Below are positions 478 to 60,000 of a stretch of DNA of 64,000 nucleotides, piece after piece. Below the pieces are notes generated by a model. The model saw only the letters and a list, made by a program, of their open reading frames with translations, did not search any database and had not been told where the DNA came from. This stretch comes from Zingiber officinale (Eukaryota > Streptophyta > Magnoliopsida > Zingiberales > Zingiberaceae). The position numbers and the translations under genes are program-made. Location: contig NC_056002.1 in NCBI RefSeq assembly GCF_018446385.1, positions 5,691,474-5,755,473 of the forward strand, given 5' to 3'. The stretch's first letter is position 1. Each line of letters starts with the position of its first letter.

Positions 478-3400
478 CCTTCTTCTTCCTTCCTTCAAGT
501 TTCGGCCAAGCAAAAACTTCCAAAGGATGAAGAACTTTTTCCACCAACCAAGCTCCAAGGGATGCAAGAAACAAGCCTCCTTTCTCTCCTTTTCTCCAAG
601 TTAGATCCGACCACTTCTATGTCTCCAAGAGGTGATGAAGTCTCGGCCACAAGAAGGAGAAGAGAGAAGGGGAAGGGGAACCTCTAGGGGCCGACCACAC
701 CTAGGAAGAAAAGAGAGGAAGAAAAAGAATAGAGTCGTTCTTTATTAAGGTACCTCTACCCCCTCTTTTATAATCCTTGGTCTTGGCAAATAAGGAAATT
801 TTAATAAAAACTTCCTTAATTCTTTTGCAATGAAAAAGAAAAATTAATTAATTAAAAATTAATTTTCTTTTTCCAATTTTCTTGGCCGACCACTTTCTCC
901 CCAAAACAAGGAAAGTTTTAATTAAAACAAGAATTAAAACTTCCTAATTTGTTTCCGGAAATTTATAAAAATTTATCCAATAATTTTTATCCCTTCATGA
1001 TTGGTTAATAAAAAGGAAATTTTATAAATTAAAAACTTTCTTTTAAACATGTGGATAATGTTGGAGGATCGGTGGCCGCTAGAGGGGGGGTGAATAGCGT
1101 CTCACCCAAAACTTTACTTCCTATAATGTTAGTGCACAGCGGAATACAAAAATAAACTAACAAATACGAAAGTTAACCTAAAAACAATAAGGAAGAAGAC
1201 AACAAACCAAACACAAACCCTAACACAAGGCGTTTACGTGGTTCGGAGATAACTTGCTCCTACTCCACGGAGTGTCCGTAAGGTGGACGATCCCTCAATC
1301 CGTCGGTGGATTAGTCCCCGACAAACTCCGGCTAGCTCAACCTCCTTGTGGGTGGAGAAACCTCACCACAACTCCAACCAAGATCTCTTGGACAAAAGAG
1401 AAACCTTGAGCACTTAGTGACTACTAATTAGGCTTTAACCAAGTCTAATTTCGTCACCTTGGCCGGCCATACCAAGCTCCTTCTTATAAAGCTTGGAACA
1501 AATCAGAACCTGATTTGCCTGTTACCAGTCGACTGGTCCTTGCACCAGTCGACTGGTGCCAGCCCAACGGCTCTCTCAACGGCTCTGCTACAGTGCATCA
1601 GTCGACTGATCCATCACCAGTCGACTGCTACATTGCGCTACAGTACGCTACAGTAACTGCTACGGTGCCGCTACAGTGAAACCCTAAAACTAGGATTTTA
1701 CTCCGAGTACAATCTCTCATGCACTTGTACCCTCACCCTTATGACTCATTTGACGCTTTCTTTGCAGCCTTGACCTTTTGCCTTCAAGCCTACTTCCTTT
1801 GGCTCTCGTCCCTCGGATGCATCCAAGCCCGCGGCTTGTCCCCAATGCTATCCTTCGCGTATGCCTCGAAGTCGCTTCCCTCGGCCATTGTCCTTGTTGC
1901 CTTGTCCACGGTCCCTCGGATGCTCCATCCTTCACCGGACCCGAAGCCGTCAACTTGAGTCACATGTGTCACCTGCAGTCCTGCACAACTCAAGTACACA
2001 TATCAAATAACAAGGATAAACCTAACTTAAACCCTTTGCCCAAACACCAAAACACATGGTCCCACGGACCATTAGGATTGCTCCAACAGATAATTTCCAA
2101 AAAGGAAAGTTATCTCTAAAAATTAAAATCTCCTTTCAATCTACAAATAAGGAAAGATATTAAATCTTTTCTTAATCTTTTGTAGAAACTAATAAAAGAG
2201 AATTTTTAATTTTTAAACTTTCTTTTAAATCATGAAAATGATTAAAAGGAAAGTTGTTACCAAAATTAAAGTAAACCTTTTTATCTACAAATAAGGAAAG
2301 AGATTTAGCTCTTCTCTTAATCTTTTGTAGAATCTTATAAAAGGAAAGATTTAAATTTTTAAGCTCTCTTTTAAATCATGTTATCCACACAAGAAAAATT
2401 TTTAAAATTAAAATTCCTTTTTATTTTAATAGGGCCGGCCACCTAAGCTTGAGTTCAAGCTAAGGCCAGCCACATGAATTCACCCATGAACCAAGCCATG
2501 GCCGGCCCTAGTTTGGTCTCCAAGCTAGCTTGGTCGGCCCCTATAGGATGGGTAAGAAGGTGGGTATAGGTGTGTATAATACTCTATAATTAAGAGGCTA
2601 CGATAGGGACCGAGAGGAGGAATTGGTTTTGGTCTCCCGATGAAATTAAGCATCTCGTGTTCCCCCGAACACACAACTTAATTTCATCAATAATAATTCA
2701 TTCCACTAAAGAATTATTATTGAACTACCGCACCAATCCCAAATTACATTTTTGGGCTCCTTCTTATTATGAGTGTGTTAGTCTCCCTGTGTTTAAGATA
2801 ACAAATGTCCACTAATTAAGTAAGTTACTGACAACTCACTTAATTAATATCTACCTCCAAGAGTAGTACCACTCAACTTCATCGTCATGTCGGACTAAGT
2901 CCACCTGCAGGGTTTAATATGACAATCCTTATTAGCTCCTCTTGGGGACATTCTCAACCTATATCACTAGGACACATTTTCCTTCTATAATCAACAACAC
3001 ACAATATAAGTGATATCATTTCCCAACTTATCGGACTTATTGATTTATCGAACTAAATCTCACCCATTGATAAATTAAAAAAATAAATATCAAATATATG
3101 TGCTTGTTATTATATTAGGATTAAGAGCACACACTTCCATAATAACTGAGGTTTTTGTTTCTTTATAAAGTCAGTATAAAAGAAACGACCTCTAATGGTC
3201 CTACTCAATACACTCTAAGTGTACTAGTGTAATTATATAGTTAAGATAAACTAATACATAATTACACTACGACCTTCCAATGGTTTGTTCCTTTCCATCA
3301 TGGTCGTAAGCTACTGTTTATAATTTATAAGGTACTGATAACATGATCCTCTGTGTGTGACACCACACACCATGTTATCTACAATATAAATTAATTGAAC

Positions 3401-3499: not shown

Positions 3500-4545
3500 A
3501 GAGAAAGTCCTCGTAGGTAGGACAATCGGACAAGGGGATGGCGCCCAAGGAGTTGGGGCAATAGGAGATCCACTCAGCTAGGAAACAATTTCCCCTTGGA
3601 CCGAGCTGCAGGAGGGTAGAGTTGAAGGCAGCTGCTCGGAAGACAGGACCAGAGTGCTTTTCCTATCTGGTGTGGATCATGGGGAAGGCACAGTAGCCGA
3701 AGGCGTTCGCTCAGAAGATAGTTATTTAGTGGTGTCAGAATGACTTCTCTTGTGTCTGACCCTAAGTTGTGTTTTAGATACAAGGGAAGGAACTTCCTTC
3801 GGTGTTATAAGAGGGTTGGGAGGTAACCTTTCTTCCACACTAGCTATCGCACCAGTACCACCCACTCGGTTGCTGGAAGCCTCTCCAAAGAGGTCGAATG
3901 ACTGACCTTCTTTTTCTACCAAAAGGGCTTGATCTCGCCAATCTATTTTAGCCTCTTCCAATCGTAGAGACTCGGAAACCAGAGCCTTGAACATGATTCT
4001 CGCTGTATAAAATAGAAAAGACCTCTGTTAGTGATAACATAAAAACTAAGTTACCAATTCTTACCAAAAGAGAAGAGAAGTGTTGCTTAGACTGGACTCA
4101 ATTTGAACATATAGAGGAGGTCCTCCTGTAACAGCTAGGGAATGTTGAATTGCAGGTTGATCAGCTTCTTCGAAGCATAAATGAATGTAGGTTCGTAGCG
4201 GTGGTCTCCTAACTCAGGAGAGGGGGAAATGCCCACTTGCCAACCGGTCGGTCAAGACGCAGAATCAGACACTTTAGATAAAAAAGAAATATGATTTCCA
4301 TCCTTTATTAGATGAAGATATTTTCTTGAAGAAAACTACTTCAGGATAGAATTGAAACAAGAAAATCCTATGCTCTAATTTTTTTAAAATAATAAAATAG
4401 TGGAAAGTACGAGGGGTCAAGGGAATTTCATATAAATGAAATAGGATCGTCATTCCACACATCGATCGGAAGGCATTGGGAGCAAGTTGTTAGAGCAAAA
4501 TATGAAAGTGTTGACTTATTTTAGATAGAAAGTGGGGGATAGGGA
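3500..4545 (-). mobile_element. Gypsy-type gag-like fossil, downstream part
   Basis: Minus-strand reading blocks at 4274-4462 and 3722-3994 resemble the plant 'putative gypsy type transposon' gag-like family (PF04195 type). The first contains the segment IPLTPRTFHYF; the second is charged and coil-like. This block continues the gag-like fossil at 6940-7297, from which it is separated by the LTR at 4546-6934. The copy is clearly broken in several places. Family assignment is from remembered motifs and needs a profile search. Confidence 0.5.
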
Positions 4546-30400: not shown

Positions 30401-32657
30401 TGTCCCTTTGATTTTTGTCCATTGATCTTTTAATAAGTTTTCAGTTTTGTTTCTTATTATGAAAGATTTTAGTAATAGTTGTTTAAAATGTTAGTAATAT
30501 TTTCACTTGATTGAGTTGTACCTAGGAAAGAGGTTTGAGGTGTAAAAATTGGACTATGTAATATCAGTTTTGCCTGGCATGGAACCTTGACCGAACACCG
30601 ATCATGTCTCCCTAGCTTAGCCACTGCTATCCATCTTACTAACATCTCCACAAAGAGTGTCCAGGATAACATGTGGGAGCTGGTTATGTCCATGAAACGT
30701 ACCAACTCTTAGATAAGATAATTATTTTCATATACCAATAAAAGTAGGAAAAACTACATTGATATCCATATGAAGCAAACAACCCATTTTTGAAAAGTGA
30801 ATACACATAAGTGAGCTTACTCCTGCCAGTCTAGGATTTCTGTGATAAATCATAATCCTGTGCACAGACAGATCATGTAGGACAAGTGAATGCACAAAAG
30901 TGTGTTTACTCCAGCTAATCTGCATTTTATGATCTAATCCTATGAGCTTATTATCTTTAAAACTAGAGTTTCTTGCTTTACCTTCTGAAAGTCGCTCTAA
31001 TCTCATATGCTACCGTGTCACTAAAAACAATCAGTAGTTCTAAATTGATAATTTTAACTACAAATTTTGTAAGCTGAACTGAGTGGACTGACCAGATGAT
31101 ATCTTATAATTGTCTAATACTATTCTATTTGATGTTTATATATTTTTGTTTTGACAAATAATTTCCTAGGTGATTCAAATCTGATTTTCAAACCAATCTG
31201 ATTCATTATCATGTTTTCCACAACCCAAATTCATTGAAGTCACTAAACCTAGGATAGGCGAGCAAAATAGCATGAATCTGATATAGAGATATTCAAGGTC
31301 ACATTTGCTGACTGTTGTGGTTATAAATTCTAACATTTTGAGTTTTCAAGTTAATAGATTTCTAATAGCCAAAAGCCTTCGGTCTTAAAGTTGAAATGAA
31401 TTTGCTAGTTTGACTAGGTTTGACTTGTAATTGACCCAATCCTGCTTTAAAATTTAAAAGGTAAAGCCCAGCAAAGAACAAGTTAAATGGCCAAGTAGAA
31501 TCTATCAATCTCAGATCAGCATAATTGTTTGACCATGATCATTATCATTTTTTTGGCTTTTCTTCAATCTTATTCAAAGTGGTGAATTGAATTAAAAGTT
31601 GGTAATGAAGGTTAATAATAAACTTCATATGTATTTCAGATTTTATAAGCTTCTCGACAACTAGTAATATATCAGTTGTACCCACTTTCAACTCCTGCTT
31701 TGTTAAAATTCCTCCGACATAACATGAGAGTCATTGGTGAAGGTCCAATTTATTTAACCTGAATTTCATCCTTGCAAGATATAGAATAAGTACAGGCAAG
31801 AATATTATGTAAACAAGTATGAAGCCCTATTTTTCTCCTTGAGTCAATTCTAGAACAAAAAATTTATGCTGTCATAATCATTACAGTCCTCAATTTAGTG
31901 GATACAAACATAAAAACAAGGAAGTAAAATTTCCAAGCAAAATTTAGGCCTGCCTCTAATGCTGTTGCCTAGATAAGAAAAAAAATAACCATAATCACAA
32001 GCCAATTTCAAAGCCTTTCCCGAGTTTTGACCCTAAAAAAAAACTCTCCCAAGTTATGAATGCTACTTTTTATAATAAATCATAAAAAGTTACCATGCTT
32101 GTTTCCGCAATCTCCTCAGCATTATATCACATTCAATTTTCTAATTATTTACTTTATTTTCAGTTTTGTGTCCATTTGATGTGGTAGAGGAATTAATAGT
32201 TCAACCCCCTGATTAACTACATCCATAATACTAGAACGCCATCCCTCAAAAAGGATCACACAAAATACTCTCGGAGAGTACGAAATCGAACGAAAAGACG
32301 AGGATACGGGGGAGTAGACATGTTCCGCCTCACCGTGTTCTTCCACCGGTCTTGGGAATTGACGTCGGCGCCAAACTCGATGAGGCACTTGGCTATCCCG
32401 ACCCAACCGTGGAGCGCCGCGACGTGGAGAGGGGTCCGTTTGTCGTAGTCGTGGGCATTGACGAGGTCAGGGTCCTCCTCGAGGAGCTTACGCACGGCGG
32501 CGACGTCGTTTTGGTGGGTGTGCCAGAGGATGAGCGACGTCCGGCTGACCCGCGCCTTCTCCTTCTCCTTCTGCTTGCCAGAAGCGGACGAGGAACGCGC
32601 TGACGAGTCGCATGCCTCGCCGGCGCCATTGTTACCGTCGGTGCGGACGCTGTTCAT
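24434..32657 (-). CDS. VIK: Ankyrin-repeat protein kinase, VIK/ILK type, 11 exons
   Basis: This resembles Arabidopsis VH1-INTERACTING KINASE, a Raf-like (group C) MAPKKK tied to receptor-kinase, vein-patterning and sugar-transport signalling. Minus-strand exons: 32657-32334, 29509-29435, 27803-27687, 26747-26653, 26305-26185, 26112-26033, 25490-25431, 25354-25233, 25155-25070, 24969-24854 and 24560-24434. All introns are GT-AG and the phases agree, giving 440 residues (Arabidopsis VIK 438). Residues ~38-107 hold ankyrin repeats (TPLHVAALHGWVGIAKCLIE). The kinase domain has a glycine loop GKGSFGE (171-177), Lys191 in VAIK, HRDLKPRN (285-292), DFG (307-309), APE (336-338) and a C-terminal RPSFLDILKRLE. 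All key residues are present, so it should be active. Intron 1 is 2.8 kb. Confidence 0.96.
29510..32333 (-). other. Intron 1 of the kinase gene, with a GC-rich island
   Basis: This 2.8-kb intron is AT-rich except for a GC-rich stretch at about 29850-30300. The stretch is bracketed by similar short sequences, AAACAGGGAGCCCC near 29807 and AAACAGGGGAGCCCC near 30353. The bracketing suggests an old inserted segment. I could not assign it to a transposon family, and its open frame at 29848-30150 has no recognisable domain. Confidence 0.35.
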
Positions 32658-33199
32658 GGGCTCGCGAAGAAGAGGGCCCTCCGTCGCCGTCCGGATCCAA
32701 ATTGAGAAAGGAATTAATTGCTAAACAAAATTAAGGATCGCAAATCAACAATTAATGGCCACGTCACTTTTCCTTTTTTCTTTTCCCCCCAATTTTATTA
32801 ATCAATTTAATTCTGACGATTCATAATGCTGGAGACAGAATTTTCTTTTCGTTCACGCTTGTGCTGGAAGTGCAAATGGGCTGGCACCACGGGACCCACT
32901 GGGGCCCGGCACCGTTGAAAAACATGAAGAGAGCATTTCGCTCATTTTCACGGGCTCCTTTATTATATTGGACTTCTACTACTCTGTTTCTTGCTTCTTT
33001 GTGTTCTTGTTGAAAGCGTGCACTCGATCACTCAAATGATGTAATTAATTACTTTCCTGGTGAGAAAAAGAGGATGGAAAGAGGAGTAAGCGATGAGAGA
33101 GAAAAAAAAAAAACAAAACCTAAGGTTTACAAAGAAAAATAAGATATAAATAGATAGTAAAAGAAATAATAAAAGAGTAATTTATCCTTATATAATAAT
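32658..33199. other. Upstream region of the kinase gene
   Basis: The kinase 5' UTR and promoter should lie here. It includes pyrimidine-rich runs (about 32770-32790) and an A-run near 33103, but no convincing TATA box on the minus strand. Copia-derived sequence begins to its right. Confidence 0.35.
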
Positions 33200-33652: not shown

Positions 33653-36600
33653 GATATATAGAATCACCGCCTCAATGTTGGCTAGAGGGAGGGTGAATAG
33701 CCCCTGTACAAAATCAAACAAAAATACCTTCCTCAACTTATAACTTAAACAAACACTTGCATAAAAGAATAAGGAAACCAAAAAAGACAAAGACACAGAA
33801 ATTTTTACTTGGTTACAAATGGGGAGATTATTAATCCAAGGAAGTAGAGCGCACTAATATCTCCTTCAAGCAGAGAAGACTCTTTACAGCAATGATCACA
33901 CGAAAACAGAAAGCTAAATGGAAAAATGTAAGCATATAAGTGTTGTTGCAAGAATGCTTGTTGTATTTAGCTACTTGGACTAAGACTGTATTTATAGCAT
34001 TGGTCGGGGCGCCTGGGAGGGTTCCAGGCGCCTGGGGGGATAAAACTTTATCCCTTTCGCAACGGATCGCGGTCAAACGTGATCCGGATAAACTTCAGTT
34101 CCAGGCGCCTGGACCAAGAAAGTCAATCATGTTCACTTTTTCCAATCCGGGCCTTCCGCTCCGGCTCCGTTCGCTTGGGTGATTTCGGACATTCGAAATA
34201 GGGCTCACCCAACCCCAACTTTCGGCCTTCTCCTCGAGCAACCTTCCGCTCTGACTTCTCGTCCTTCAGAAACGCCGCACGCCTCCTCGTCCGCTCGTGT
34301 ACTCTTCCGCAGCACCTCATCCCTCAAACGCACCGAGTCCGTTGGCTCTCTCCCGTGTCTTCCTTCTCGCTAGCTGCGTCTTTTGCTCGACTTCCTGTGC
34401 TCCTAAGTTCCTGCACACTTAGACATAGGGTTAAAAACAACAAGATCTAACTTAACTTGTTTCATCACATCAAAATAACATTGAGGTACCAACAATCTTC
34501 CCTTTTTTGATGTGAGCAACCCAAGTTAAGTTAAGTTAAGATAAACCAATATAAAATAAAAGTAATAAATTTACAATTAAAGTGCAAAAATTTTTAAAAG
34601 TTAAACTACCTCCTCCTAAACTTAATCTTCCCTTCTCCCCCTTTGATCACATAAAAAATGGGGTACAAAAAAAATCTAAGGGTTAAATTTAAAAAAAAAT
34701 AGGAAAGTTTTTTTGAAAAAAAACTGATTTTCAATATTTTGAAAAACCTATCAAGTTTATCTTGATAACACTTAAAATAATTTTTATAAAAATTTTCTTA
34801 AAAAAATATTGATATAATATCAATATTTTTCTAAGTTTAAAAAAAAATAATTTTGTAGAAATAATTTTGGAAAAAGTAAAGCTGATACTAAAAAAAAAAA
34901 TTAAGTTAAAATTTCTAAGTTTAAAAAAATGAGTAACTATTTAAAATATTTTTTAATTATAATTAAATACTTTATCAATTAGTCAATTAAATATTTTATT
35001 TCGTTAATTGACTTCCAAGCTGTGGTGAGACACTAGGCCTTCTTGGTTATTAGATCATTAACCACTTTTAGACAAAGCCTCATAATGAAATCAAATATTT
35101 AATGTACTTTTTGAAAGCTCTAAGTCTAATTAAACTTTAATTTAGACAAGTCTTTGGAACCCAATATAGGTTCCTTCCAACTGGGTTAACTAGAAATTTC
35201 TTTGGTATATATTTCTGAGAAAATTTTCTAATTTATCTTTTGTGGTAATAAAAGTACCAATTTAGACCATTAAAATTTCTACTACTTGTATTAGATGAGC
35301 ATGCATGATTTTTAAAGTTCTTTATTTCTTTTTGCAAAATATTATTTTCCAATTTTACTTTGTCAAATTCTTCTAATGGTAAAGATTTAGCTAGAATTAA
35401 TTTCAATTCTTTATTTTTTTTTTCAAGTTTGCAACAATCTTTAGTTAATAATTTAATACATTTAAACAACTTATCAAGTGGAAGAGATCGTACCTAACTT
35501 ACCTTGTCAATCTCGTTGTCTGTAGCTCCCCCTGAACTGCTGCTTTCTTCTGTTGACGCTCCCCCTTCATCGGACAAGCTTTCTTTGTGTTCATCTTCCT
35601 GATGACTTGCCATCAACTCAAGTATGGAAAAGGCTTCGAACTCTGATTCGGACGACGTTTCGTCCCACGTCGCCTTTAGGGTCTTGTACTTGTTCTTGCC
35701 TTTGTTCTTCTTGTTGATCTTTAACTTAGGGCAGTTGTTTTTAACATGCCCTTCTTCATTGCAGTGGTAGCATCTGATCGTTTTTCTTTTTCTACCCTGT
35801 GGATGGTTAGATTTTCTAGATTTACGTAACTTTTTAAAACATCTTATCATCATTACCGTTTCATCGTCGTCGAGAGAGGACTCTGAACTTTGTTCATCCA
35901 TCTTTGCCTTAAGGGCAATGTCGTGCTTCGGCTCCTTCTTTGTATCTGCACATCTCGATTCATGGACTTCAAAGGTTGAAAATAATTCTTCTAAGGTAAC
36001 ATATTCTAAATCCTTAGAGATATAGTAGACATCTACTAATGATGCTCATTTTGTATTTCTACGGAATGCATTAAGAGCATGCCTTAGCGAATCTCGGTTG
36101 CTTACATTTTCTCCGAGATTCAAAAGTCTGGTGATGAGCTCCTTGATCCTCGAGTGAAGGTGTGCAATTGTTTAGTCTTCCTCTAATCGGAGGTTGCTGA
36201 TCTGGTTACGAAGTAAGTCCTGTCTCGCAAGTTTCACCTCTGAGGTTCCTTCATAAAGTTCCAGGAATTTTTCCCAGAGCTCCTTGGCAGACCCGTAAGT
36301 TCCAATCTGATTGACTTCTTGTGGCGGGAGGGCGCTCAGCAGATGAAGCTCTGCTTTTTCATTTGCCACAAAGTCTGCTTGTTCCTTCTTCGTCCATTGA
36401 TATTTTTGCTTGCCTTCCGGCACTTCAAAACCGAATTCCATTATTAATAATAAATCAAAGTATGTTTTGAAAAATACCTCCATTCTCTTTTTCCAGCTCG
36501 CGAACTCCCACTCGAACTTTGGTGGGTAAATGCTTGGTCCGGCCATCTCGCGTGCTTCATTCGGCGGTTAGTCCTCCTGAAGCGAACCTCGCTCTGATAC

Positions 36601-37481: not shown

Positions 37482-37642
37482 CTTATGCGGTTGTTCTTCA
37501 AGCTTTTCAAAATCTTGATCTTTCTAGTTTCTTTAACATTCGGTTTCTTCGACCTGGTTATGTGTTTATGCATCTCACATCGAGTGAGGACATGGCTTGT
37601 ATGTGGACTCATGGTGTTTGATCGACCGAGATAAGATTCAAA

Positions 37643-37925
37643 CACTACAACAAAAATGTTAAAAGACAACACCCCTACGACAACGGTTTTAGAAGGAAGT
37701 GTTGTTAATTTGGTTAAAGACAACAGTTTTTGACAAAACCGTTGTCTTTGAGCTTTCAAAAAAAAACAAAAGACAACAGTTTTATAAAAATTATTGTCGT
37801 TGAGCGACTTTTTGTAAAATCAACAACACATTTTACAACGGTTTTCTAAAACTATTGTCTTTAAGCGCTTTCTTAGGGGGTCAAAGACAACGATTTATTA
37901 AAACCGTTGTCTTTGACTTTTTTCT
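37643..37925. repeat. Left terminal and subterminal repeats of the CACTA element
   Basis: The terminal inverted repeat is followed by several copies of AAAGACAACGGTTTT, often facing each other (for example AAAGACAACAG...AACCGTTGTCTTTG), so the arm can fold into hairpins. Such motifs bind the transposase in the En/Spm group. Confidence 0.85.
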
Positions 37926-38114
37926 TTCGCCGTTTTTTCCCTTCACAGTTTTTGTTGTGGCGGTGTTTTGCATTCCCTCCGAAAATTTTTTGGCACCCTA
38001 TTTTCCGCCTTAGCCTTCCCGAACCCTAAACTCCTCTCCTCATACGATCTCTCCCCCCCCCCCCCCCCTACCTTCCTACCGAAACCTTCAGAAGGGGTGA
38101 GAGGATGGATTTTA

Positions 38115-38515
38115 GGGGCTCCCTCCTCCTCTTTCCCCCTCTGCTCATCACCATCGCCAGATTCCCGTTCGCACTGCCGTTTCGGTGACCCCGACTTCAC
38201 CCTCAGCCCCGGCACGCTGTACGACGTGCTCGGCGTCGCCGCTGCCACATTGGGGCTCGAGATCATGGTGGCTTACTGGAGGCTCGCCGGCGCATGCCAC
38301 CCGAACGCGGTGGTCGCGGCGGACCGGCTGACGAGTTCATGTGGATCCACGCGGCCTACGAGACGCTCTCTGACTTGGACAAGAGCACCGAGTATGATCG
38401 AGGGGTCCTCGTCGCCGATCGGAGATGGAGGTCGTTCCATTCTTCCTGATCGTCGTATTCCTTCTACGCCGGCCGACGCCAACCGCGGACGTGGGAGATG
38501 GACCAGTGCTGGTAA
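38115..38515 (+). pseudogene. Captured DnaJ11-like chloroplast J-protein fragment
   Basis: One frame gives DPDFTLSPGTLYDVLGV, then YWRLAGACHPNAVVAADR. After a frame shift near 38330 another frame continues ADEFMWIHAAYETLSD, DKSTEYDRG and, past a stop, WEMDQCW with its own stop at 38513-38515. These match the J-domain and the characteristic WETDQCW tail of small plastid J-proteins of the DnaJ11 type. The catalytic HPD triad reads HPN, one in-frame stop and one frameshift are present, and no intron is seen, as in the parent family. It lies between CACTA terminal repeats, so it is a captured, non-functional copy. The parent gene is not in this window. Confidence 0.8.
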
Positions 38516-39487
38516 CTAACAAGATGCATCAAAGGTGTTTGATTATATGCCGATCTCAAATTTTCTACCCTAAATTTCTTTATTGCTGTTCTTTGTACAT
38601 GTTCACAGATCAAATAATCTTTGATCTCGCCAAACAACCTCTTCTTATTTCAATTTTGTTTTCCCTTTTCCTTAGGCAATCGTATTAATCTAAGATTACA
38701 ATCAAAACTAAAGAAAACCTTTGACTTCATGTTCTGTTTGCTTTAAAAACAAGAAGTTCTGAGACTTCTCGGATCTCTATTTGATCAGCAACTCTTTGGT
38801 TTTTTTAAGAAAGGTTTTTACTCAAGTTGCTACAATTAATTCATAGATGCAAACGGAGGAAGCATTTGATTGTGATGGTTTCGCTTCACCTTCCTTTAGA
38901 GGAACAGCTGAACAACTTTGTAACAAATGAATAAGCCTTCTTGTCTCATCTAACCTTAAAAAGTGTACCAGCTTCCTACTTCCTTGAGTTAGGACATGGA
39001 GGCAGTGAGGATGGCAGCAATTATGAGTAAGAACATGGAGGCAGTGAGGATGAGCGAAAGGTATGTCTCACCTAGGTTTTGTTTGGAAAAGTGATTTTTT
39101 TTTAAAAAAAATAATTTTATTAAACATATTTAAAATCATTGGGGTAAGTTACAAGGCTTGCAAAGATGAAATGTGAGTTTTTCCAGGTTGTGTTGTTTCA
39201 TTATTTGTCAGCATTTTGCAATCAATTGGTTTATAAGAATCTTTGAATTTTTGAAGCATATGTAATGAAGCATTATTTTAAGAACAAGGAGAAGCTACTT
39301 TTATATAAATGTGAGTTTGTACAACTTTTGTGTTTCTTCCTTTGGCGATAAGAATTTATTGCTTGGAACTGCAGAATTCTCCTTTTTCTTTGCTTATGTT
39401 TGGAACTAATCTTGCTTTCTGAAAACCATTAGTGTTTGTATAATGGTGTTGTATCTGCCTCAAGGTTGGAATTGGTCTTGCTTCCTT
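38516..39487. other. CACTA interior between the captured genes
   Basis: This stretch is AT-rich. It includes a short repeated block (ACATGGAGGCAGTGAGGATG near 38993 and 39033) followed by a GTATGT donor-like site. I do not recognise a parent gene. It could be intron or flank captured with either fragment. Confidence 0.35.
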
Positions 39488-40838
39488 CCTTTGAGAAATG
39501 GAAATGAAAATTCATATACAATTGAAGTAATTGTTTATGATTATTTTCTGTGACAACAGAGAATTCAATTGTGTTACTCTGCTGATTTTCCTTGCTTAAA
39601 TGTTGGAAAACCAAAAGGACCATCATATGTGCCCCTTGAGGTTTTTGAGCTCATTCTACTTCACTTTTTTTTATTTTTTTTTGAAAGAACCTTTATTTTT
39701 ATCCTGACAAATTTGGCAAACTATTCAGTTCTGCTCCTTAGTTTCACTGCAAAGATATACCAAATCACTGTCAACATTTCAACAAGCTTCCCTGGTGGAA
39801 AAGTCAAGGTTGAAGCCTTATGAATGAATAAGTGTCCTCAGTGAGGTATGTGTCGATCTTTAAGATTGGTTTTGTTGGTATGACATGTATGCTGTTTTTT
39901 CATGCTTCTCCTTGGATGATAGATAGGCTTTGAGATTCAATAATTATGATGCTCACCCACTCCTACATGCATGTAGCGTTAGCATTGCCACTGCTTTTAC
40001 TCAAATAGAAGGCGTAGTATTGCAACCTCCCCGGGTATGATTTTATGTTTTGTATTTATATTTTTACGTATTATTTGAGGTTATTTATGACAAAAGCAAA
40101 TGCTGCAGCTCAGAGTTGGCAATGGAGAGGACTTTATTCCATCAAGGGGGAGATGGAATTTTAACCAAAAGGTGTTTTTTTTTTCTTTCAATGAGTTTAT
40201 TATTGTAGTTAAAATATATACCTCTTTCAGAAATTAATGGAGCCGTCTCAAATCACCCGTTGGGTTGTTGTTAATTTTTTAGCTCGACGTGATGTTTCAA
40301 GCCTCATACATGACATGCGCAAATGCACAAATATGAAGCGCATTGTATGTTTTGACATTACTTTTTTCCCATGGAGTTTTAAATGCAGGGACAATTATTT
40401 TTAACCAAATTTGTCATACAAGGAATTATGACTTCTACATGTGCTCTAATGCTGGCATGATTGCAAGCTCTGTGTTTCAAAAGTTGTACTCTATTTAAAG
40501 CCTTTACATTTATAAATTTTTAGCATTCTTGGTCGGTGTGGATTTTATTTGGGTGCTTTCTTTTTTACAAGTACCTGCTTTGTGAATTACTAGGTATATT
40601 TTCAAAATTAAATTATCAATGTTCTTGACAGGAACTTGCTTTATGGATTAAATTCTGCCATTTGTCTAAATAAATTCAATATTTCAAGAGCTATAAGTAA
40701 TTCAAGTTTTTCTTATATTGGTGTTTGTAATTTCATAGGGTACAACCCGACCCACTCATGACCATGTGCTAATGGATGAGAATGGATTTATTACTGATTT
40801 CCTGCAGGAGCTTGTTCATTCCCTTTCTCATGTGTAAG
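39488..40838 (+). pseudogene. Captured AGO4-clade Argonaute fragment, multi-exon
   Basis: Argonautes of the AGO4/6/9 clade load 24-nt siRNAs and direct DNA methylation. Exon-like blocks appear in family order with splice sites. 39488-39643 is the PAZ end (VIVYDYF, RIQLCYSADFPCLNVGKPK). 39731-39845 is CSLVSLQRYTKSLSTF and ASLVEKSR. 39927-40034 is NYDAHPLLHACSVSI and FTQIEG. 40109-40171 is LRVGNGEDFIPSRGRWNFN. 40231-40344 is the MID start (ITRWVVVNFLARRDV). 40389-40462 is CHTRNYDFYMCSNAGMI. 40739-40838 is GTTRPTHDHVLMDENGF and LQELVHSLSH. GKPK after CLNV indicates the AGO4 clade, since AGO1 types have other residues there. N-terminus, early PAZ and central PIWI with the catalytic residues are absent, and at least two in-frame stops occur. 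One intron appears to use a GC donor (ATT|GCAAGC). Confidence 0.88.
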
Positions 40839-42164
40839 CACTTGTTTATATATACGTAACTAATATTTTAGTTCTCCAATGATTAATATTGTAATTGAGA
40901 TATCCTATTCTATGTCCAAATGTACAAATATAAGAGGAGTACAACTGTGATATCTGTGGGTAAGTTGGTTCGTGATTTGTGCCATACCTTATAAATTGTT
41001 AGGACCCCTGTATTGAAAAATCTGGACTGTGGTTTCATTTGAAGGTTTGACTATTCTTTCCAAGTTAAACTTGTGAAAATTTTAGGTCAACTAGAGTCCA
41101 TCCAATCCTACCAGACAAGATTAGTGACTGGTTCCAGTTTTAACCTGCTGAAGTGAATTGTCCAAGATTTTGAAACTTGTCTCCTTTGATCATAAATAAC
41201 TTGCATGTTTTGACAAGATCTAATAAACATTTCTTTTATTTATATGATTGTTTTTACAAGATCTAATGATTTTTTTTTCTATAATTGTAGATTGTGCCTT
41301 GTCCATTGTTAGCACTTGCAATTTACTTGGAAGTTGTTTCGGTGTTGTCCTACATAAGGTCAACGACTGATGCAAAACATAAAGGTAAAACCTAAATTAT
41401 CATATCTTTGCATATTCATAAATAAAATATGTTGTCTTTTAACATTTTAGCTTCTGTTGTGTTTTTTGTTTTTTTAACTCATGTAGTTCAATGAAATAAT
41501 GGGTTAAGCTTCCGAATCCAAGTTCGGTCTAGAGAAGGACCATAGTGAGTACTTAACCAAATACCAAAGGTTTCATTGATTCAAATGAAACTTGAGGGAC
41601 TAAATTTAAGTATTCAAACCTCTATCATGATCATGGGTATTGGCTAAGTCTCAACTTATTAGGAGGTAAGAAATGACCCCTCTTTCTTCTTTAGAAATCT
41701 AGCACATCATATTAATATTTTTTTTCTTCTCTTCATCCTGAAGGAAAGTAATCTCCAGGACGTTTATTTTCAGAAAAGGGATAAAGCTAGGTTTGCAAGC
41801 TAAGTCTATGAAGTTTTGTATGCAGAAAAAGGACCAGTACGTGAAGATTGTTAGCACATCCTGATCACTTGATCTATTCAGAAACGGATAAGTTAATTTG
41901 CATGGTTGTGGTTTGATAAACTTAATTTTGTGGTTGTCATGAACTTATGGTCATGTTTGGATAGCTTAGCTTGTAGTAATTGTAGAAGTTTATAAACTTA
42001 ACTTAAGTGAATGTACATATATGTTGTACCAGTTTTTGGTTGAGACAAGATGTATAAAACGCAACTGAATGTATATATGTTGACAATGGTTTTGTGAATG
42101 TATATATGTTGTACAGGTTTGTGTGTAAAAAAATTATTTTATCTATTCGTGATGCATTTTCTAA
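40839..42164. other. CACTA interior, right part
   Basis: AT-rich sequence follows the last clear Argonaute exon. A possible further exon near 40930-40972 reads RSTTVISVG before a GTAAG donor, which fits the AGO sequence after HSLSYV. No other protein family is recognised. Confidence 0.4.
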
Positions 42165-42515
42165 TCAACATAGACAACAATTTTTTAACCGTTGTGAAAA
42201 TTATGCAAAGACAATGGTTTTAAACTAAATTGGAAGAAAGACAACAGTGTATTTGTTGTCAAAAGCATATCTGCGATCAAAATTATTGCAAAACTGGCAA
42301 TTACAATGGTTTTATATGTTGCAGAACTGTTGTCATTGGTATTAAAAGACAACGCTTTAAATCCGTTGCATGACTATTGTCTAATGTGATCAAAGACAAC
42401 GGTTTTAAACCGTTGTCTTTTACCGCACATTTAACAACACTGCCAATTACAACGGTTTTAAAGAGCCTACGACAACGGTTTTTAACCGTTGTCTTTTAAT
42501 AATTTTGTTGTAGTG
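42165..42515. repeat. Right terminal and subterminal repeats of the CACTA element
   Basis: Multiple copies of the AAAGACAACGGTTTT motif in both orientations lead to the terminal inverted repeat ending TTGTTGTAGTG. The motif is the same as on the left arm, which ties the two ends into one element. Confidence 0.85.
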
Positions 42516-42529
42516 AAAGTAATGTTAGG

Positions 42530-50961: not shown

Positions 50962-53900
50962 TGTTAGGACCCTTGGCGATTGGCTAGAGGGGGGAGTGAA
51001 TAGCCCCTGCACAAATTAAGCAAACAAAACCTTTCTTGGACTTATAACTTAAAATAACACTTGCATAAATATAGAATGAATAATAAACTAAAAGACAGAG
51101 ACATAGCAGGTTTACTTGGTTACAATCGGGGAGGTTGTTAATCCAAGGAAGTAAAGTGCACTAATTTTTTCCTTCAGATAGAGAAGCCTTTTTACAGCAA
51201 TGACAGCACAGAAACAGAAATCTAAAATAGAAAGTGTCTACAAGTGTTGTTTCACTATTTTTTTGTTGTTAGCTTCTGGGAGCAAGGCTACTTATATAGC
51301 CTTGCTCGGGGCACCTGGAAGGGTTTCAGGCGCCTGGAATGGAATAAAACTTTATCCCTGATGCAACGATACACACCACATCAAGTTTGGCTAAAACTTG
51401 GGTTCCGAACGCCCCAGACTGCTCTGAGCGTCCCAGACTGGTTCCGGGCGCCCCGACCAAGTCCAAGCGCCCCGACCAGGAAAGTTAACACAGTTGACTT
51501 TTTTTGTCCGGGTCTTCCACTCCGGTTTTGCTTGCTTGGGTGATTTTGGCCATCCGGAATAGGGCTCACCCAACCCAACTTCCAGCCTTCTCCTCGAGCA
51601 AGCTTCCGCTCTAGCTTCTCATCCCTTGGAATTGTCGCATGCTTCCTTCTCGTCTGCCAGCGTACTCTTCCACAACATTTCGTCCCTCGGGCAACTACGT
51701 CTTTTCTCCACGAGCAATCTCTCACTCTGGCTTCTCGTCCCTCGGAAACACCACACGCTCCCTTCTCGTTCGTCGGTGTACTCTTCCGTAGCACCTCGTC
51801 CCTCAGACACACTGAGCCTGTTGGCTCTCTCCCGTGCTGTCATTCTCGCTAGCTGCGTCTTTTGCTTGACTTCCTGTGCTCCTAAGTTCTTGCACACTTA
51901 GACACAGGGTTAAACACAACAGGATCAACCTTAACTTATTTGATCACATCAAAACTACTTTGGGGTACCAACAATCTCCTCCTTTTTGATGTGAGTAACC
52001 TAAATTAAGTTAGGGTAAACCAACATAAAGTAAAAGCAATGAATTTTACAATAAAGTGCAAAAAAGTAAAAAAATTAAGCTACCTCCCCTTAGACTTAAT
52101 CATCCCTTCTCCCCCTTTGATCACATAAAAAACGAGGTATCAAAAAAAAAAATCTAAGGTTAACTTTTCAAAAATAAAAAAGTTTTTAGTTTTAAAAAAA
52201 AACTCTGATTGTCTAACATTTTGAAAAAACTTATCAAGTTTTTGAAAACTTTGAAAATAATTTTGATATCACTTAAAAAAATTTGCAATAATTTTAGAAA
52301 CTTTAAGTTTTGCAAAAAAAAAAAATTCTAAGAAAAAAATGTTTGAGTAAATATTTAAAGCATTAATTATAATTAAATATTTTATTTCATTAATTGGCTT
52401 CCAAGCTGTGACGAGGCATTAGGTCTTTTTGATTATTGGAGCAACAACCAGTTTCTATACAAAGTATCTTAAGGAAATCAAACATTTAATCTACTCTCTG
52501 AAAGCCCTAACTTTAAAGTTTTAATTTATACAAGTTTTTATAACCCAATATGGATTCCTACCAACTGGGTTAATCAGAAATTTCTTTGGAACATATTTTC
52601 TAGATAGTTTTCTAATTTGACCCCTATGAAATCTAAGATGCCAGCTTAGTCTATTATAATTTTGGGTTTTAACATTTAAGCATGCATGATTTGTCAAGTC
52701 TTCTACTTGTACTTAAATTTATCATTTTCTATTTTTAATTTATCATATTCTTCTAATAGACAAGATTTGGCTAGAATCAATTTTAACTCTTTATTTTCTT
52801 TTTCTAGTTTGCAACAATTTTTTTATAAATATTTTATAAACTTAAATGACTTATTAGGATGAAGAGATCGTACCTGACTTACCTTGTCAATCTCGTTATC
52901 CATAGCTCCCCCTGAAGTGCTACTTTCTTCCGATATCGCTCCCCCTTCATTGATGCTCTCGATTCTCATTTCAAATGAGATTGCTTCATTTTCGTCGTCT
53001 TGATAACTTGTCATTAACGCAAGTCCGGAGAAAGCCTCAATCTCTGATTCGGACAATGTTTCATCCCATGTCGCCTTTAGCATCTTGTACTTATTAGATT
53101 GGATAGGCTTCTTATTTTTTCTTTTGCCCTTGTCCTTGATCTTTAACTTATGGCAGTTGTCTTTAACGTGTCCTTCTTCATTGCAGTGGTAGCATCTGAT
53201 TGTTCTTTTCTTTCTACCCTGCAGATGGTTAGTTTTTCTAGTTTTAAATAATATTTTAAATTATTTTGCCATTAATGTCGTTTCGTTGTCATTGAGAGAA
53301 GATTCTGAAACTTGTTCGTCCACCCTTGCCTTTAAAGCTACGTTGTGCTTCGGATCCTTCTTCGAATCTGCACATCTCATTTTATGGACTTCAAATGTTG
53401 AAAACATTTCTTCTAAGGTGACAGATTCTAAATCTTTAGATATATAGTAAGCATCTACTAATGATGTCCACTCAATAGATCTAGGAAATGCATTAAGCGT
53501 GTACCTTAGCGAATCTCAATTTCTTACCTTTTCTCTGAGATTCGAAAGTTCGGTGATGAGCTCCTTAATCCTCGAGTGAAGGTGTGCAATGGTTTCATCT
53601 TCTTCAAATCGAAAGTTGGTGAGCTGATTGTGAAGTAAGTCTCGTCTCGCAAGTTTTGCCTCCGAGGTTCCTTCATGAAGTTCCAGGAATTTTTCCCAGA
53701 GCTCTTTGGTGGACTTGTAAGCTCCAATCCGGTTGACTTCTTGTGGAGATAGGATGCTCAGTAGATGAAACTCTGCTATGTTGTTTGCCATGAAGTCAGC
53801 TTGTTCCTTCTTCGTCCATTGATACTTTTCCTTGCCCTCGGGTGCTTCAAAATCAAATTCCATTATTAACAATAAATCAAAATCTACTTTGAAAAATATA

Positions 53901-55145
53901 TCTATTCTCTTTTTTCAGCTCGTGAACTCCCCCTCGAAGTTCGGTGGGTAGATGCTCGGTTCAGTCATCTCGTGTACTTCATTCGGAGGTTAGTCCTCCT
54001 GAAGAGTCCTGGCTCTGATACTACTTGTTAGGACCCTTGGTGGCCGGCTAGAGGGGGGTGAATAGCCCTTGTACAAATTAAGCAAACAAAACCTTTCTCG
54101 GGCTTATAACTTAAAATAACACTTGCATAAATATAGAATAAATAATAAACTAAAAGACAGAGGCACAATAGGTTTACTTGGTTACAACCGGGGAGGTTGT
54201 TAATCCAAGGAAGTAAAGCACACTAATTTCTCCTTCAGACGGAGAAGCTTCTTTACAGTAATGACAACACAGAAATAGAAAACTAAAACAGAAAGTGTTT
54301 ACAAGTGTTGTTTCACTATTTTTTTTATTGTTAGCTTCTGGGAGTAGGGTTGCTTATATAGTCCTGCTCAGGATGCCTAGAAGGGTTCCAGGCGCCTGGA
54401 ATGGGATAAAACTTTATCCCTGACGTAACGGTACACACCACGTTGAGTTTGGCTAAAACTTGGGTTTCGAGTGCCCAGAAGGGTTCTGGGCACCACGGAC
54501 TGCTCTCAGCACCCCGGACTGGTTCCGGGCGCCCCGACCTGGTTCAGGCGCCCCAACCTTTTCGAGCGCCCCGACCTGGATCGGGCGCCCCGACCTGGTT
54601 CGGGCGCCCCGACCTTGAAAGTCAACACAGTTGACTTTTTTCATCCAGATCTTCCGCTCCGGTTCCGCTCGCCTTAGTCTGGGTCTTCCACTTGGCTCCA
54701 CTCGCTTTGGTGATTTCAGTCATCCAGAATAGGGCTCACCCGAACCCAACTTCCGGTCTTCTCCTCGAGCAAGCTTCCGCTCCGGCTTCTCGTCCCTTGG
54801 AATCGCCGCGTGCTTCCTTCTCGTCCGCCAACTTACTCTTCCACAACATTTTGTCCCTCAAACAGCAGCGTCTTTTGCTCCTCGAGCAATCTTTCGCTCT
54901 GGCTTCTCGTCCCACAAAAACACCGCATGCTCCCTTCTCGTCCGTTGGTGTACTCTTCCGTAGCACCTCGTCCCTCAGACGCACCGAGCTCGTCGGCTCT
55001 CTCTCGTGCCATCCTTCTCGCTAGCTACATCTTTTGCTCGACTTCCTGTGCTCCTAAGTTCTTACACACTTAGACACAAGATTAAACACAATATGACCTA
55101 ACTTAACTCTTTTGATCACATCAAAACTATCTTGGGGCACCAACA
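50962..55145 (-). mobile_element. Gag-only LTR retrotransposon (TR-GAG type), copy 2
   Basis: LTRs span 50962-51973 and 54026-55145 (TGTTAGGACCCTTGG...CACCAACA), in minus orientation. The flanks AATAA (50957-50961) and GATAA (55146-55150) agree at four of five bases. The gag remnants on the minus strand include QWTKKEQADFMANNIAEFHL and KELWEKFLELHEGTSEAK (53872-53516), plus a degenerate zinc-knuckle area near 53150-53210. No polymerase is seen. It lies inside element X. Broken copy. Confidence 0.75.
54470..54620. repeat. Short tandem repeats of a GGCGCCCCGACC core
   Basis: About eight 15-17-bp units of the form GGGCGCCCCGACCTGGTTC lie in one LTR of the gag-only copy 2. The partner LTR (51405-51480) has fewer units, so the array changes length between LTRs of one element. 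Confidence 0.7.
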
Positions 55146-57097: not shown

Positions 57098-60000
57098 TGT
57101 TAGGACCTTTGGCGGTTGACTAGAGGGGGACCAGTGAATAGCCCCTGCACAAAACAAAAACAAATAACCTTCCTCAAACTTATAACTTAATATAACACTT
57201 GCATAAGAATAAATAAAAGACTAAAAAGACGAGGCTCACAGATTTACTTGGTTACAACCAGGGAGGTTGTTAATCCAAGGAAGTTGAATCGCACTAAGAA
57301 TCTTCTTGAGGCGGAGAAGCCTCTCACAGCAATGAACGCACAAAAAGATGAAATTAAACAGAAAAAGAAAAGTGCACAAGTGTTGTTTGGATATTTCTAG
57401 TTGTCGTAAAGCTTTGGAAGCAAGGTTGTTTATATAGTCTTGCTCGGGACGCTTGGAAGGGTTCCAGATGCCTGGAGGGAGATAAAATGTTATCCCCTTC
57501 ACAACGGATTACGGTCAAACGCGATCCGGATAGACTTCGATTCCGGGCACCCGGAAGGGTTCCGAGCACCCTGACCTAGAAAGTCAACCATGTTGACTTT
57601 TTCAGTCTGGGCCTTCCGCTCCGGTTTCGCTCACCTCGGTCCGGGTCTTCCACTCCGATTCCTCTTGCTTGAGTGACCTCAGCCATCAGGAATACGGCTC
57701 ACTCGAACTCAAACTTCCGGCCTTCTCGAGCAAGATTCCGCTCCGGCATCTCGTCCCTCAGAAATGTCGTGTGCCTTCTTCTCGTCCGCTCACGTACTCT
57801 TCCGCAGCACCTTATCCCTCAAACGCACCGAGCCCGTCGGCTCTATCCCGTGCCGTCCTTTTCGCTAGTTGCGTCTTTTGCTCGACGCCCTGTGCTCCTA
57901 GGTTTCTATACACTTAGACACAAGGTTAAACACAACAGGACCTAATCTAACTTGTTTGATCACATCAAAACAACCTTAGGGTACCAATAATCTCCCTCTT
58001 TTTGATGTGAGCAACCCAAGTTAAGTTAGAGTAAACTAACATAAAGTAAAAGCAATATATTTACAATTAAAGTACAAAAATTTTAAAAATCAAAACTACC
58101 TCCCCTTAGACTTAATCTTTCCTTCTTCCCCTTTGATCACATAAAAATAGGGTATTAAAAGAAATCTAAGGGTAAATTTTCAATAAATAGGAAAGTTTTT
58201 TAGTTAAAAAAAAAAACTGATTTTCAACATTTTAAAAAACTTATCAAGTTTTTGAGCATTTTGAAAAATAATTTTGATAGCACTTAAAAAAATTACAATA
58301 ATTTTAGAAAAAATTTCTAAGTAAAATTTTTTTTCATATCACCAAAAAAAACATCAATAATTTCCTAAGTTTGCAAAATCTAATTTTGGTAAAGTAAAGC
58401 CGATACTTCCAAAAAAAAACTTTAAGTTTTTTTTAAAAAAATCTAAGTTAAAAAAAATTTGAGTAACCATTTAAAGTATTATTTAATTACAATTAAATAC
58501 TTTATCAGTTAGTCAATTAAATATTTTATTTCATTAATTGACTTCCAGGCTGTGGCGAGACACTAGGCCTTCTTGGTTATTGGAGCAACAACCACTTTCT
58601 AGACAAAGCCTCTTCAGGAAATTCAAACATTTATTTTTCTCGCTAAAAGGGCTAAATCTAATAAAAGTTCAATTTAGACAAGACTTTAGAACCCAATATA
58701 GGTTTCAGGCAATTGGGTTAATTAAAAATCTCTTAGGAATATTTTCTTAAGAAATTTTCCTAATTTGTCCCTTGTGGTAAGTAAAATACTAGTTCAATTT
58801 ATTATATTTCCTAATATTTTGATTTTTAACATTTATGCATGCATTATTTTCCAAGTTCTTTATTTCTTTTTGTAAATTATCATTTTCCAATTTTATTTTA
58901 TCAAATTCTTCTAATGGACAAGATTTTGCTAGAATTAAATTTTAACTCTTTAATTTCTTTTTTTAATTTGCAACAATCTTTAGATAATAACTTAACAAAT
59001 TCAAATAACATGTCGGGAGGAAGAGATCGTACTGGACTTACCTTGTCAATCTCATTATCCGTAGCTCCCCCTGAACTGCTGCTTTCTTCCGATGTCACTG
59101 CCCCTTCATCGATGCTCATTTCAAACAAGCTTGCTTCGTCGTCTTGATGACTTGCCATTAACGCAAGTCCAACAATAGCTTCAACTTCTGATTCGGACGA
59201 CGTTTCACCCTACATCGCCTTTAGCATCTTGTACTTGTTCGTTTAGACGGGCTTCTTGTTCTTACCCTTGTCCTTGTTCTTCAACGTAGGATAGTTGTCT
59301 TTAACGTACCCTTTTTTGTTGCAGTGGTAGCATCTGATTGTTCTTTTCTTTCTACCCTGCAGATGTTAGTTTTTCTATATTTAAATAATTTTTTAAATTG
59401 TCTTACCATCATTACCATTTCGTCGTCATCCAGAGAGGATTCTGAATCTTATTCATCCATCTTAGCCTTGAGGGCAATATTATGTTTTGGCTCCTTTTTC
59501 GAATCTACACATCTCGTTTCATGGACTTTAAATGTTGAAAACATTTCTTCTAAGGTAACAGAATCTAAATCCATAGAAATATAGTAAGCATCTACTAATG
59601 ATGCCCACTCAATAGATCTAGAAAATGCATCATGCGCGTACCTTAGCGAATCTCTGTTGCTTACCTTTTCTCTGAGATTCGTGAGTCCGGTGATTAGTTC
59701 CTTCATTCTCGAGTAAAGATGTGCAACAATTTCTTCTGCTTCCAATTTTATGTTACTTAACTGATTCCTTAGTAGATCCCGTCTCGCAAGCTTGGCTTCG
59801 GACGTCCCTTCGTGTAGCTTAAGGAACTTCTCCTAAAACTCCTTTGCTGAGTCGTAGGCAACCTTCTTGTGGCAGAAGGACACTCAGCAGATGGAACTCT
59901 GCTTTGCCATTTGTCATGAAGTCGACATGCTCCTTCTTCGTCTATTGGTATTCTTCCTTACCTTCGGGTACTACAAGACCAAATTTCATTATTAAAAGAA

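Follow-up and report, generated by a model that had tools for sequence, protein, structure and literature searches.

A ginger CACTA element carrying captured DnaJ and AGO4-like Argonaute DNA, and its related families

How did pieces of two unrelated host genes, one for a DnaJ protein and one for an Argonaute, come to lie on the same strand of ginger (Zingiber officinale) DNA between inverted repeats that start with CACTA? The locus occupies positions 37,643 to 42,515 of a 64,000-nucleotide window (the whole stretch of DNA analysed, C17:5,691,474-5,755,473), and the genome searched comprised 3,090,333,446 bases in 211 contigs. The answer, of which we are highly confident, is that the locus is a non-autonomous Pack-CACTA (transduplicated En/Spm-type) element, of a family here called F1, with captured AGO4-like and DnaJ DNA, that it was later multiplied, and that the captured exons are dead as protein. 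Positions within the element are given as 'el', el 1 being window position 37643.

Each of the terminal features characteristic of the CACTA superfamily was recorded at this locus. The terminal inverted repeats are 28 nt long, start with CACTA and are 93% complementary, which corresponds to two mismatches; short subterminal repeats in both orientations are present at both ends; and the element is flanked by a 3-bp target duplication, AAA, of which a single copy is present at an empty site on C18. The relevant boundaries, with the evidence for each, are as follows.

37643..42515, + strand: whole non-autonomous CACTA element, family F1, 4,873 bp (ends, target duplication, full-length relatives, empty site)
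37640..37642, unstranded: left target site duplication, AAA (sequence; single AAA at the C18 empty site)
37643..37670, + strand: 5' terminal inverted repeat, CACTACAACAAAAATGTTAAAAGACAAC (inverted-repeat pairing)
37661..37926, unstranded: 5' subterminal repeats, AAAGACAACGGTTTT type, direct and inverted (repeat analysis; strong local folding)
42161..42511, unstranded: 3' subterminal repeats (repeat analysis; strong local folding)
42488..42515, - strand: 3' terminal inverted repeat (inverted-repeat pairing)
42516..42518, unstranded: right target site duplication, AAA (sequence; single AAA at the C18 empty site)

At the empty site (position 3104 of L042) the single AAA is flanked by four blocks colinear with the window. 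C17 and C18 look like homologues because they share, at 99% identity, a gene fragment that lies near the element, and among the DnaJ-bearing places listed by the search described below none lies on C18 near 6.6 Mb. The empty site is nevertheless only probably the allele of the insertion, because its blocks are 87.5-92% identical to the window, against 98.5% for the nearby gene block, and part of the DNA around it is repetitive, matching elsewhere in the window as well.

That the arrangement might be an assembly artefact, or a rearrangement unique to this site, is refuted by this empty site and by 17 full-length copies at different sites; nothing was found in its favour, and it can be given next to no credence. 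Each of the 40 places scored, one of them the window's own, out of 1,923 first-look candidates contained the first 498 bp of F1 at no less than 94% identity, and the 20 best others were examined in full. Both ends were present in 17 of the 20, with L011, L017 and L024 truncated, and 16 of the 17 full-length copies exhibited a perfect 3-bp target duplication. The Argonaute piece was retained in all 17 and the whole DnaJ piece in 16, L019 having lost part of the latter. A search with the DnaJ protein located the broken, transposon-type DnaJ piece at no fewer than 53 places, the window's included (150 of 297 candidates scored; counted by eye), and those listed comprised three on C7 against none on C8, and two on C3 against none on C4. 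An exact 30-mer typical of the 3' ends of other copies occurred 199 times genome-wide and not at all in the reversed control; among the first 100 of these sites, it was in register downstream of 12 of 20 F1 places on the chromosomes covered. Inserts nested in L018, L022 and L028 were considered as parts of an older, longer element, an interpretation that was rejected: they look like other repeats inserted into the copies, those of L018 and L022 resembling each other and the DNA next to L017, and that of L028 partly resembling the DNA next to L024.

Between the ends, the interior resolves into two captured pieces and two stretches of filler.

38164..38512, + strand: DnaJ-gene piece, el 522-870, frame broken (PF00226, 5.7e-11)
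38513..39127, + strand: filler between the DnaJ and Argonaute pieces, of unassigned origin (no long match to L041, the one Argonaute donor compared)
39128..40988, + strand: AGO4-like Argonaute piece with introns, comprising an upstream exon end, the end of PAZ, L2, the start of MID and the last part of PIWI (three-block alignment to L041 on C3; Pfam; PDB Argonautes)
39129-39170, 39560-39643, 39741-39845 (in-frame stop), 39939-40034, 40109-40171, 40234-40344, 40403-40468 and 40739-40834, + strand: eight recognisable Argonaute exon remnants
40384..40386, unstranded: internal deletion junction, 1.5 kb of the parent missing (L041 4515 to 6016), with PIWI exons (alignment)
40989..42160, + strand: filler after the Argonaute piece, of unassigned origin, with one locally stable fold at el 3901-4020 (alignment, folding)

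Both pieces are related to host loci that still exist. The candidate parent of the DnaJ piece is an open 184-aa frame present on C19 and C20: el 572-870 is 88.5% identical at the DNA level to the C20 parent (L049), el 522-571 resembles by eye the 50 bp upstream of it, and a net 13-nt deletion relative to the parent breaks the frame: where the parent has 312 nt, 13 of the 14 aligned copies have 299 nt and the remaining one 298 nt. Pfam analysis of the Argonaute piece gave a Piwi match over the cut-off (1.5e-11), with ArgoMid, ArgoL2 and PAZ below theirs. El 1486-3346 aligns in three BLAST blocks, of 76-85% identity with gaps, to L041, an AGO4-like gene on C3 that has near paralogues as well as an allele on C4; when gaps are ignored, identity is 89.3% in exons and 88.3% in introns, and two stretches of the gene, of about 155 bp and 1.5 kb, are absent from F1. 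Introns are kept, and therefore DNA rather than mRNA was captured. The name DnaJ11 for the one piece, and AGO4 or AGO4-clade for the other, are provisional labels given on sequence hallmarks. Elsewhere in the genome, an Argonaute gene pair at C20:5,506,867-5,507,778 and C19:5,402,996-5,403,907 has its Piwi domain in one open 588-aa frame, whereas the remaining Piwi matches are broken into smaller segments.

The original prediction, made from the window alone, is borne out in the following respects: it had described CACTA ends enclosing fragments of a DnaJ and an Argonaute gene in the same orientation, and had proposed that two unrelated host genes were transduplicated. It had also named two findings that would tell against it. 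The first, that no other copies with these ends exist, is contradicted by dozens of further copies; the second, the same gene pieces adjacent at a normal chromosomal site without CACTA ends, was seen at none of the places read, which were a part of all those found.

With regard to timing, the mean pairwise divergence among 14 aligned full copies is 2.4%, far below the 11-12% that separates them from the donors (gaps left out), and on these values capture long precedes the F1 burst. No absolute age is given because methylation-type mutations inflate the divergence: in the 14 copies, transitions at CG, CHG and CHH sites were respectively about 22, 26 and 7 times as frequent as those at A/T sites, a pattern as expected of methylated DNA.

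Two further sets of AGO4-like loci bear on the order of events. A locus on C6 (L048; C6:44,757,480-44,758,680, with an allele 95% identical at C5:56,277,995-56,279,173) is closer to F1 than is L041 over el 2724-2995 (93.8%) and el 3010-3281 (91.5%); over el 2375-2744 (86.4%) it is not. Its own deletion, which spans L041 4657 to 5970, is smaller than that of F1 and falls within it. A search with its inner 1.2 kb returned the allelic pair, followed by AGO4-like loci and F1 copies as partial matches at 94-97% or less (40 of 141 candidates scored), and three identities are conceivable for the locus: old element, progenitor or pseudogene. The other set is a repeat designated F3. Of 40 places scored among 146 candidates, 34, among them the C5/C6 locus, carry its AGO4-like DNA, and the remaining six are L041, its allele and four near paralogues. 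The F3 DNA starts at L041 base 2397 in 31 places and within 8 bases of it in three, and reaches at least base 3120, the end of the query, so that it lies upstream of F1's share, which runs from base 3125. The upstream part of the C5/C6 locus shares its starting donor base with 32 other F3 places. This common 5' boundary was counted in favour of a Pack-CACTA origin, as was the presence of the exact 3' terminal 30-mer, in register downstream, at three of 23 checkable F3 places. F3 is exemplified by C6:44,759,699-44,760,415, with 33 other places; at C12:27,764,668-27,786,134 an F3 piece and the pieces of an apparent single, split F1 copy lie on the same strand, about 21 kb apart at most.

A sequence of events compatible with these data would begin with an ancestor that captured a stretch of an AGO4-like gene as genomic DNA, complete with introns. 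The captured piece would then have undergone internal deletions, its upstream part passing to F3 and its downstream part being joined to the DnaJ piece in F1, after which F1 would have multiplied to the places recorded above, its captured exons being by now dead as protein.

A coding product of the element can be assessed from the same 14 copies. The third Argonaute exon remnant contains an in-frame stop in 13 of them and a frameshift in the other, and frames are broken in all 14. Divergence among copies is 0.0240 in exons and 0.0194 in introns, and 0.0269, 0.0256 and 0.0194 at codon positions 1, 2 and 3 respectively; there is, in these copies, no purifying selection, exons being no slower than introns and positions 1 and 2 no more conserved than position 3. 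Protein function of the captured pieces was rejected because exons evolve no slower, all frames are broken and position 3 is not the fastest. The same data count against a functional, spliced DnaJ-Argonaute chimeric transcript; the original prediction had regarded one chimeric transcript as permitted by the common orientation, an idea whose coding part finds no support. A functional product of this kind is very improbable, even though both pieces share a strand, the GT donor is kept at several Argonaute exon ends (e.g. 39846, 40035, 40172 and 40345), and the captured pieces of the soybean element Tgm-Express1 are spliced into chimeric transcripts (PMC1947982). F1 may nevertheless give rise to a non-coding chimeric transcript.

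The only stop-to-stop frames of 120 aa or more in F1 are one of 200 aa over the DnaJ piece and one of 122 aa at the 5' end, which runs out of the element; none is of transposase size, as is usual for Pack-CACTA elements, neither frame having been scanned whole against Pfam. F1 therefore needs a partner, and would have depended for its movement on a CACTA transposase supplied in trans by another part of the ginger genome. Candidates are plentiful, PF02992 giving 6,544 first-look candidates, of which all 150 scored were over the cut-off.

A second family, F2, carries a different Argonaute. The Piwi search revealed a further Argonaute repeat set at 19 places, counted by eye, and the four examined (L043-L046) share sequence. 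L043 1-5419 together with L047 94-250 (C11, ~13,525,843-13,531,418) makes up a whole CACTA element, about 5.6 kb long and flanked on either side by ATA, the last ~175 bp of which are 86% identical to the 3' end of F1, while its 5' end (CACTACAAGAAAAACC) differs. Its contents comprise a peroxiredoxin piece (PF08534, 2.4e-31), a terminal-nucleotidyltransferase piece (PF22600, 3.6e-07) whose best solved relatives are TUT4 and TUT7, a Piwi piece of a different Argonaute (8.2e-34) and a short ATP-synthase piece under the cut-off (PF00006, 6.8e-05). The uridylyltransferase-like gene is provisionally labelled HESO1, and the Argonaute AGO1. The nucleotidyltransferase piece recurs at no fewer than 22 places with 91-100% identity (40 of 49 candidates scored), five of the 19 F2-type Piwi places lie 2.3-2.5 kb from it (by eye), and the 3' terminal 30-mer is in register downstream of three of 15 F2 places (first 100 of the 199 sites). 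A second CACTA family with a different Argonaute and a uridylyltransferase-like piece, and a third repeat with an adjoining AGO4-like part, are unusual. F2 and F3 were found through searches with Argonaute sequence, so that their Argonaute content is no random sample from which an excess over chance could be read; the uridylyltransferase-like piece turned up unsought.

Several points weigh against the Pack-CACTA reading, or against parts of it. No listed terminal repeat lay within 25 kb, in the right orientation, of any of 98 PF02992 transposase places on C1-C11, in a partner search that drew on the 199 repeat sites as far as the first 100 and on 150 transposase candidates out of 6,544. One full-length copy, L013, is without a matching target duplication, and the donor of the Argonaute piece is traced to an AGO4-like lineage rather than to a single gene. 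Of the 23 checkable F3 places, 20 lack the exact 3' terminal 30-mer, F3 being known from its interior, and the methylation-type pattern was measured in copies alone, without a flanking-DNA control. The genome-wide search with ends and interior that had been proposed for F1 has consequently succeeded in part: copies and related parent genes were found, and the autonomous partner was not tied to the family.

What effect might such a family have at present? The Argonaute piece is DNA of what we take, from the provisional AGO4 label, to be a silencing-pathway gene, and its exonic 21-mers match L041 exactly in 66 of 503 cases and with two mismatches or fewer in 263, for which reason a small-RNA role is possible in principle; with introns included, 719 of 1,841 21-mers match the donor gene at this level, and the longest exact run, 44 nt, lies within an exon. 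The most likely present effect would be that of a source of homologous DNA, and possibly of small RNA, for AGO4-like and DnaJ genes.

Two different kinds of consequence of such homology can be envisaged. In one, small RNAs derived from the copies would cut or silence host AGO4-like genes and thereby weaken RNA-directed DNA methylation, in the way that miR820, carried by a CACTA element, acts on DRM2 in rice. These 21-mer matches, the abundance of DnaJ-bearing F1 copies, the precedent of a CACTA element with an exon/intron piece of DRM2 (PMC3459959) and the occurrence of a second Argonaute together with a uridylyltransferase-like piece in F2 speak for such an adaptive role; it is nonetheless unlikely. 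Folding of the window copy (120-nt windows, 30 shuffles each, both strands) detected no miRNA-like hairpin in the Argonaute piece, where the best window gave z -2.8, the strongest folds lying in the subterminal repeats and one more in the filler at el 3901-4020 (z -3.8). There is in addition no sign of selection keeping the sequence; the copies bear the mark of heavy methylation, so that silencing seems effective on them; and the DnaJ, peroxiredoxin and ATP synthase pieces have no known silencing link.

In the other, element small RNAs would spread methylation to the donor genes, or host-like DNA would camouflage the element, or the homology would be neutral baggage. This set of outcomes is a tentative possibility, appreciably better placed, which accords with the methylation-type mutations in F1 copies and with accounts, in PMC13317346 and PMC10004981, of maize Helitrons, Pack-MULEs and Sireviruses whose captured DNA is reported as a small interfering RNA (siRNA) reservoir against donor genes, and of capture as camouflage. 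It sits less easily with host genes that have an open frame (DnaJ) or exon frames open by eye (L041). A broader proposal, in our estimation improbable, is that a ginger CACTA clan with related ends repeatedly took up pieces of silencing genes, AGO4-like in F1 and F3 and AGO1-like and HESO1-like in F2, by their provisional labels, whose small RNAs would dampen host silencing genes and let the clan amplify; if true, it would extend the principle of the rice miR820 system to many genes.

The surroundings of F1 hold retrotransposon remnants, and the window also includes a gene exon, as follows.

35494-36567, 52823-53914 and 59449-59832, - strand: remnants of Copia-type gag (PF14223 and the zinc knuckle PF00098, with part of the matches under the cut-off)
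32256-32720, - strand: ankyrin-repeat gene exon, 99% identical on C18

F1 is accordingly real, correctly located and of the known Pack-CACTA kind, to which are added related families with two kinds of Argonaute and a uridylyltransferase-like gene. With at least 53 F1, at least 22 F2-marker and at least 34 F3 places, ginger provides a natural setting in which to ask whether transposons benefit from carrying pieces of the silencing machinery, the Argonaute captures of F1 and F2 make a possible transposon attack on that machinery testable, and the related captures at the C5/C6 locus, in F1 and in F3 let the steps of capture and breakage be read. In the open-licence literature, most matches being represented by their search listings, no Argonaute capture by CACTA or Pack elements was found, review passages on works naming both subjects being silent on it too, and a search for Zingiber with CACTA gave nothing on the F1 element.

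Among known systems, the rice CACTA element with DRM2-derived miR820 is, by analogy, the closest functional precedent: it too has exon/intron DNA of a gene of RNA-directed DNA methylation in several to many copies, but its target is DRM2 and its piece forms a miRNA hairpin (PMC3459959), whereas the F1 piece is AGO4-like and yielded no such hairpin. Tgm-Express1 of soybean is likewise a CACTA element, of similar size (5.7 kb), with several unrelated host gene fragments that include introns; it differs in carrying five fragments, lying within a known gene and having demonstrated chimeric transcripts (PMC1947982), while F1 adjoins retrotransposon remnants and is known from DNA alone. Pack-MULEs and Helitrons, which belong to other superfamilies, resemble F1 in carrying transduplicated host gene pieces able to feed small RNAs (PMC13317346). 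A double capture that includes a gene of the transposon-silencing pathway had been described as unusual in the original prediction; maize Pack-CACTA elements often carry pieces of more than one locus (PMC8903248), and what is unusual lies beyond the predicted element, in the different Argonaute and uridylyltransferase-like pieces of F2 and the adjoining AGO4-like part in F3. The unlike ends of F2 (CACTACAAGAAAAACC against CACTACAACAAAAATATT) are as predicted by a published model, outlined in PMC13317346, PMC8903248 and PMC8616336, by which a hybrid arises from Pack-CACTA elements that lie next to each other and have each lost one of their ends. Compared with the Pack-CACTA elements of Arabidopsis and maize, those of ginger are distinguished by two related families that carry pieces of different Argonaute genes.

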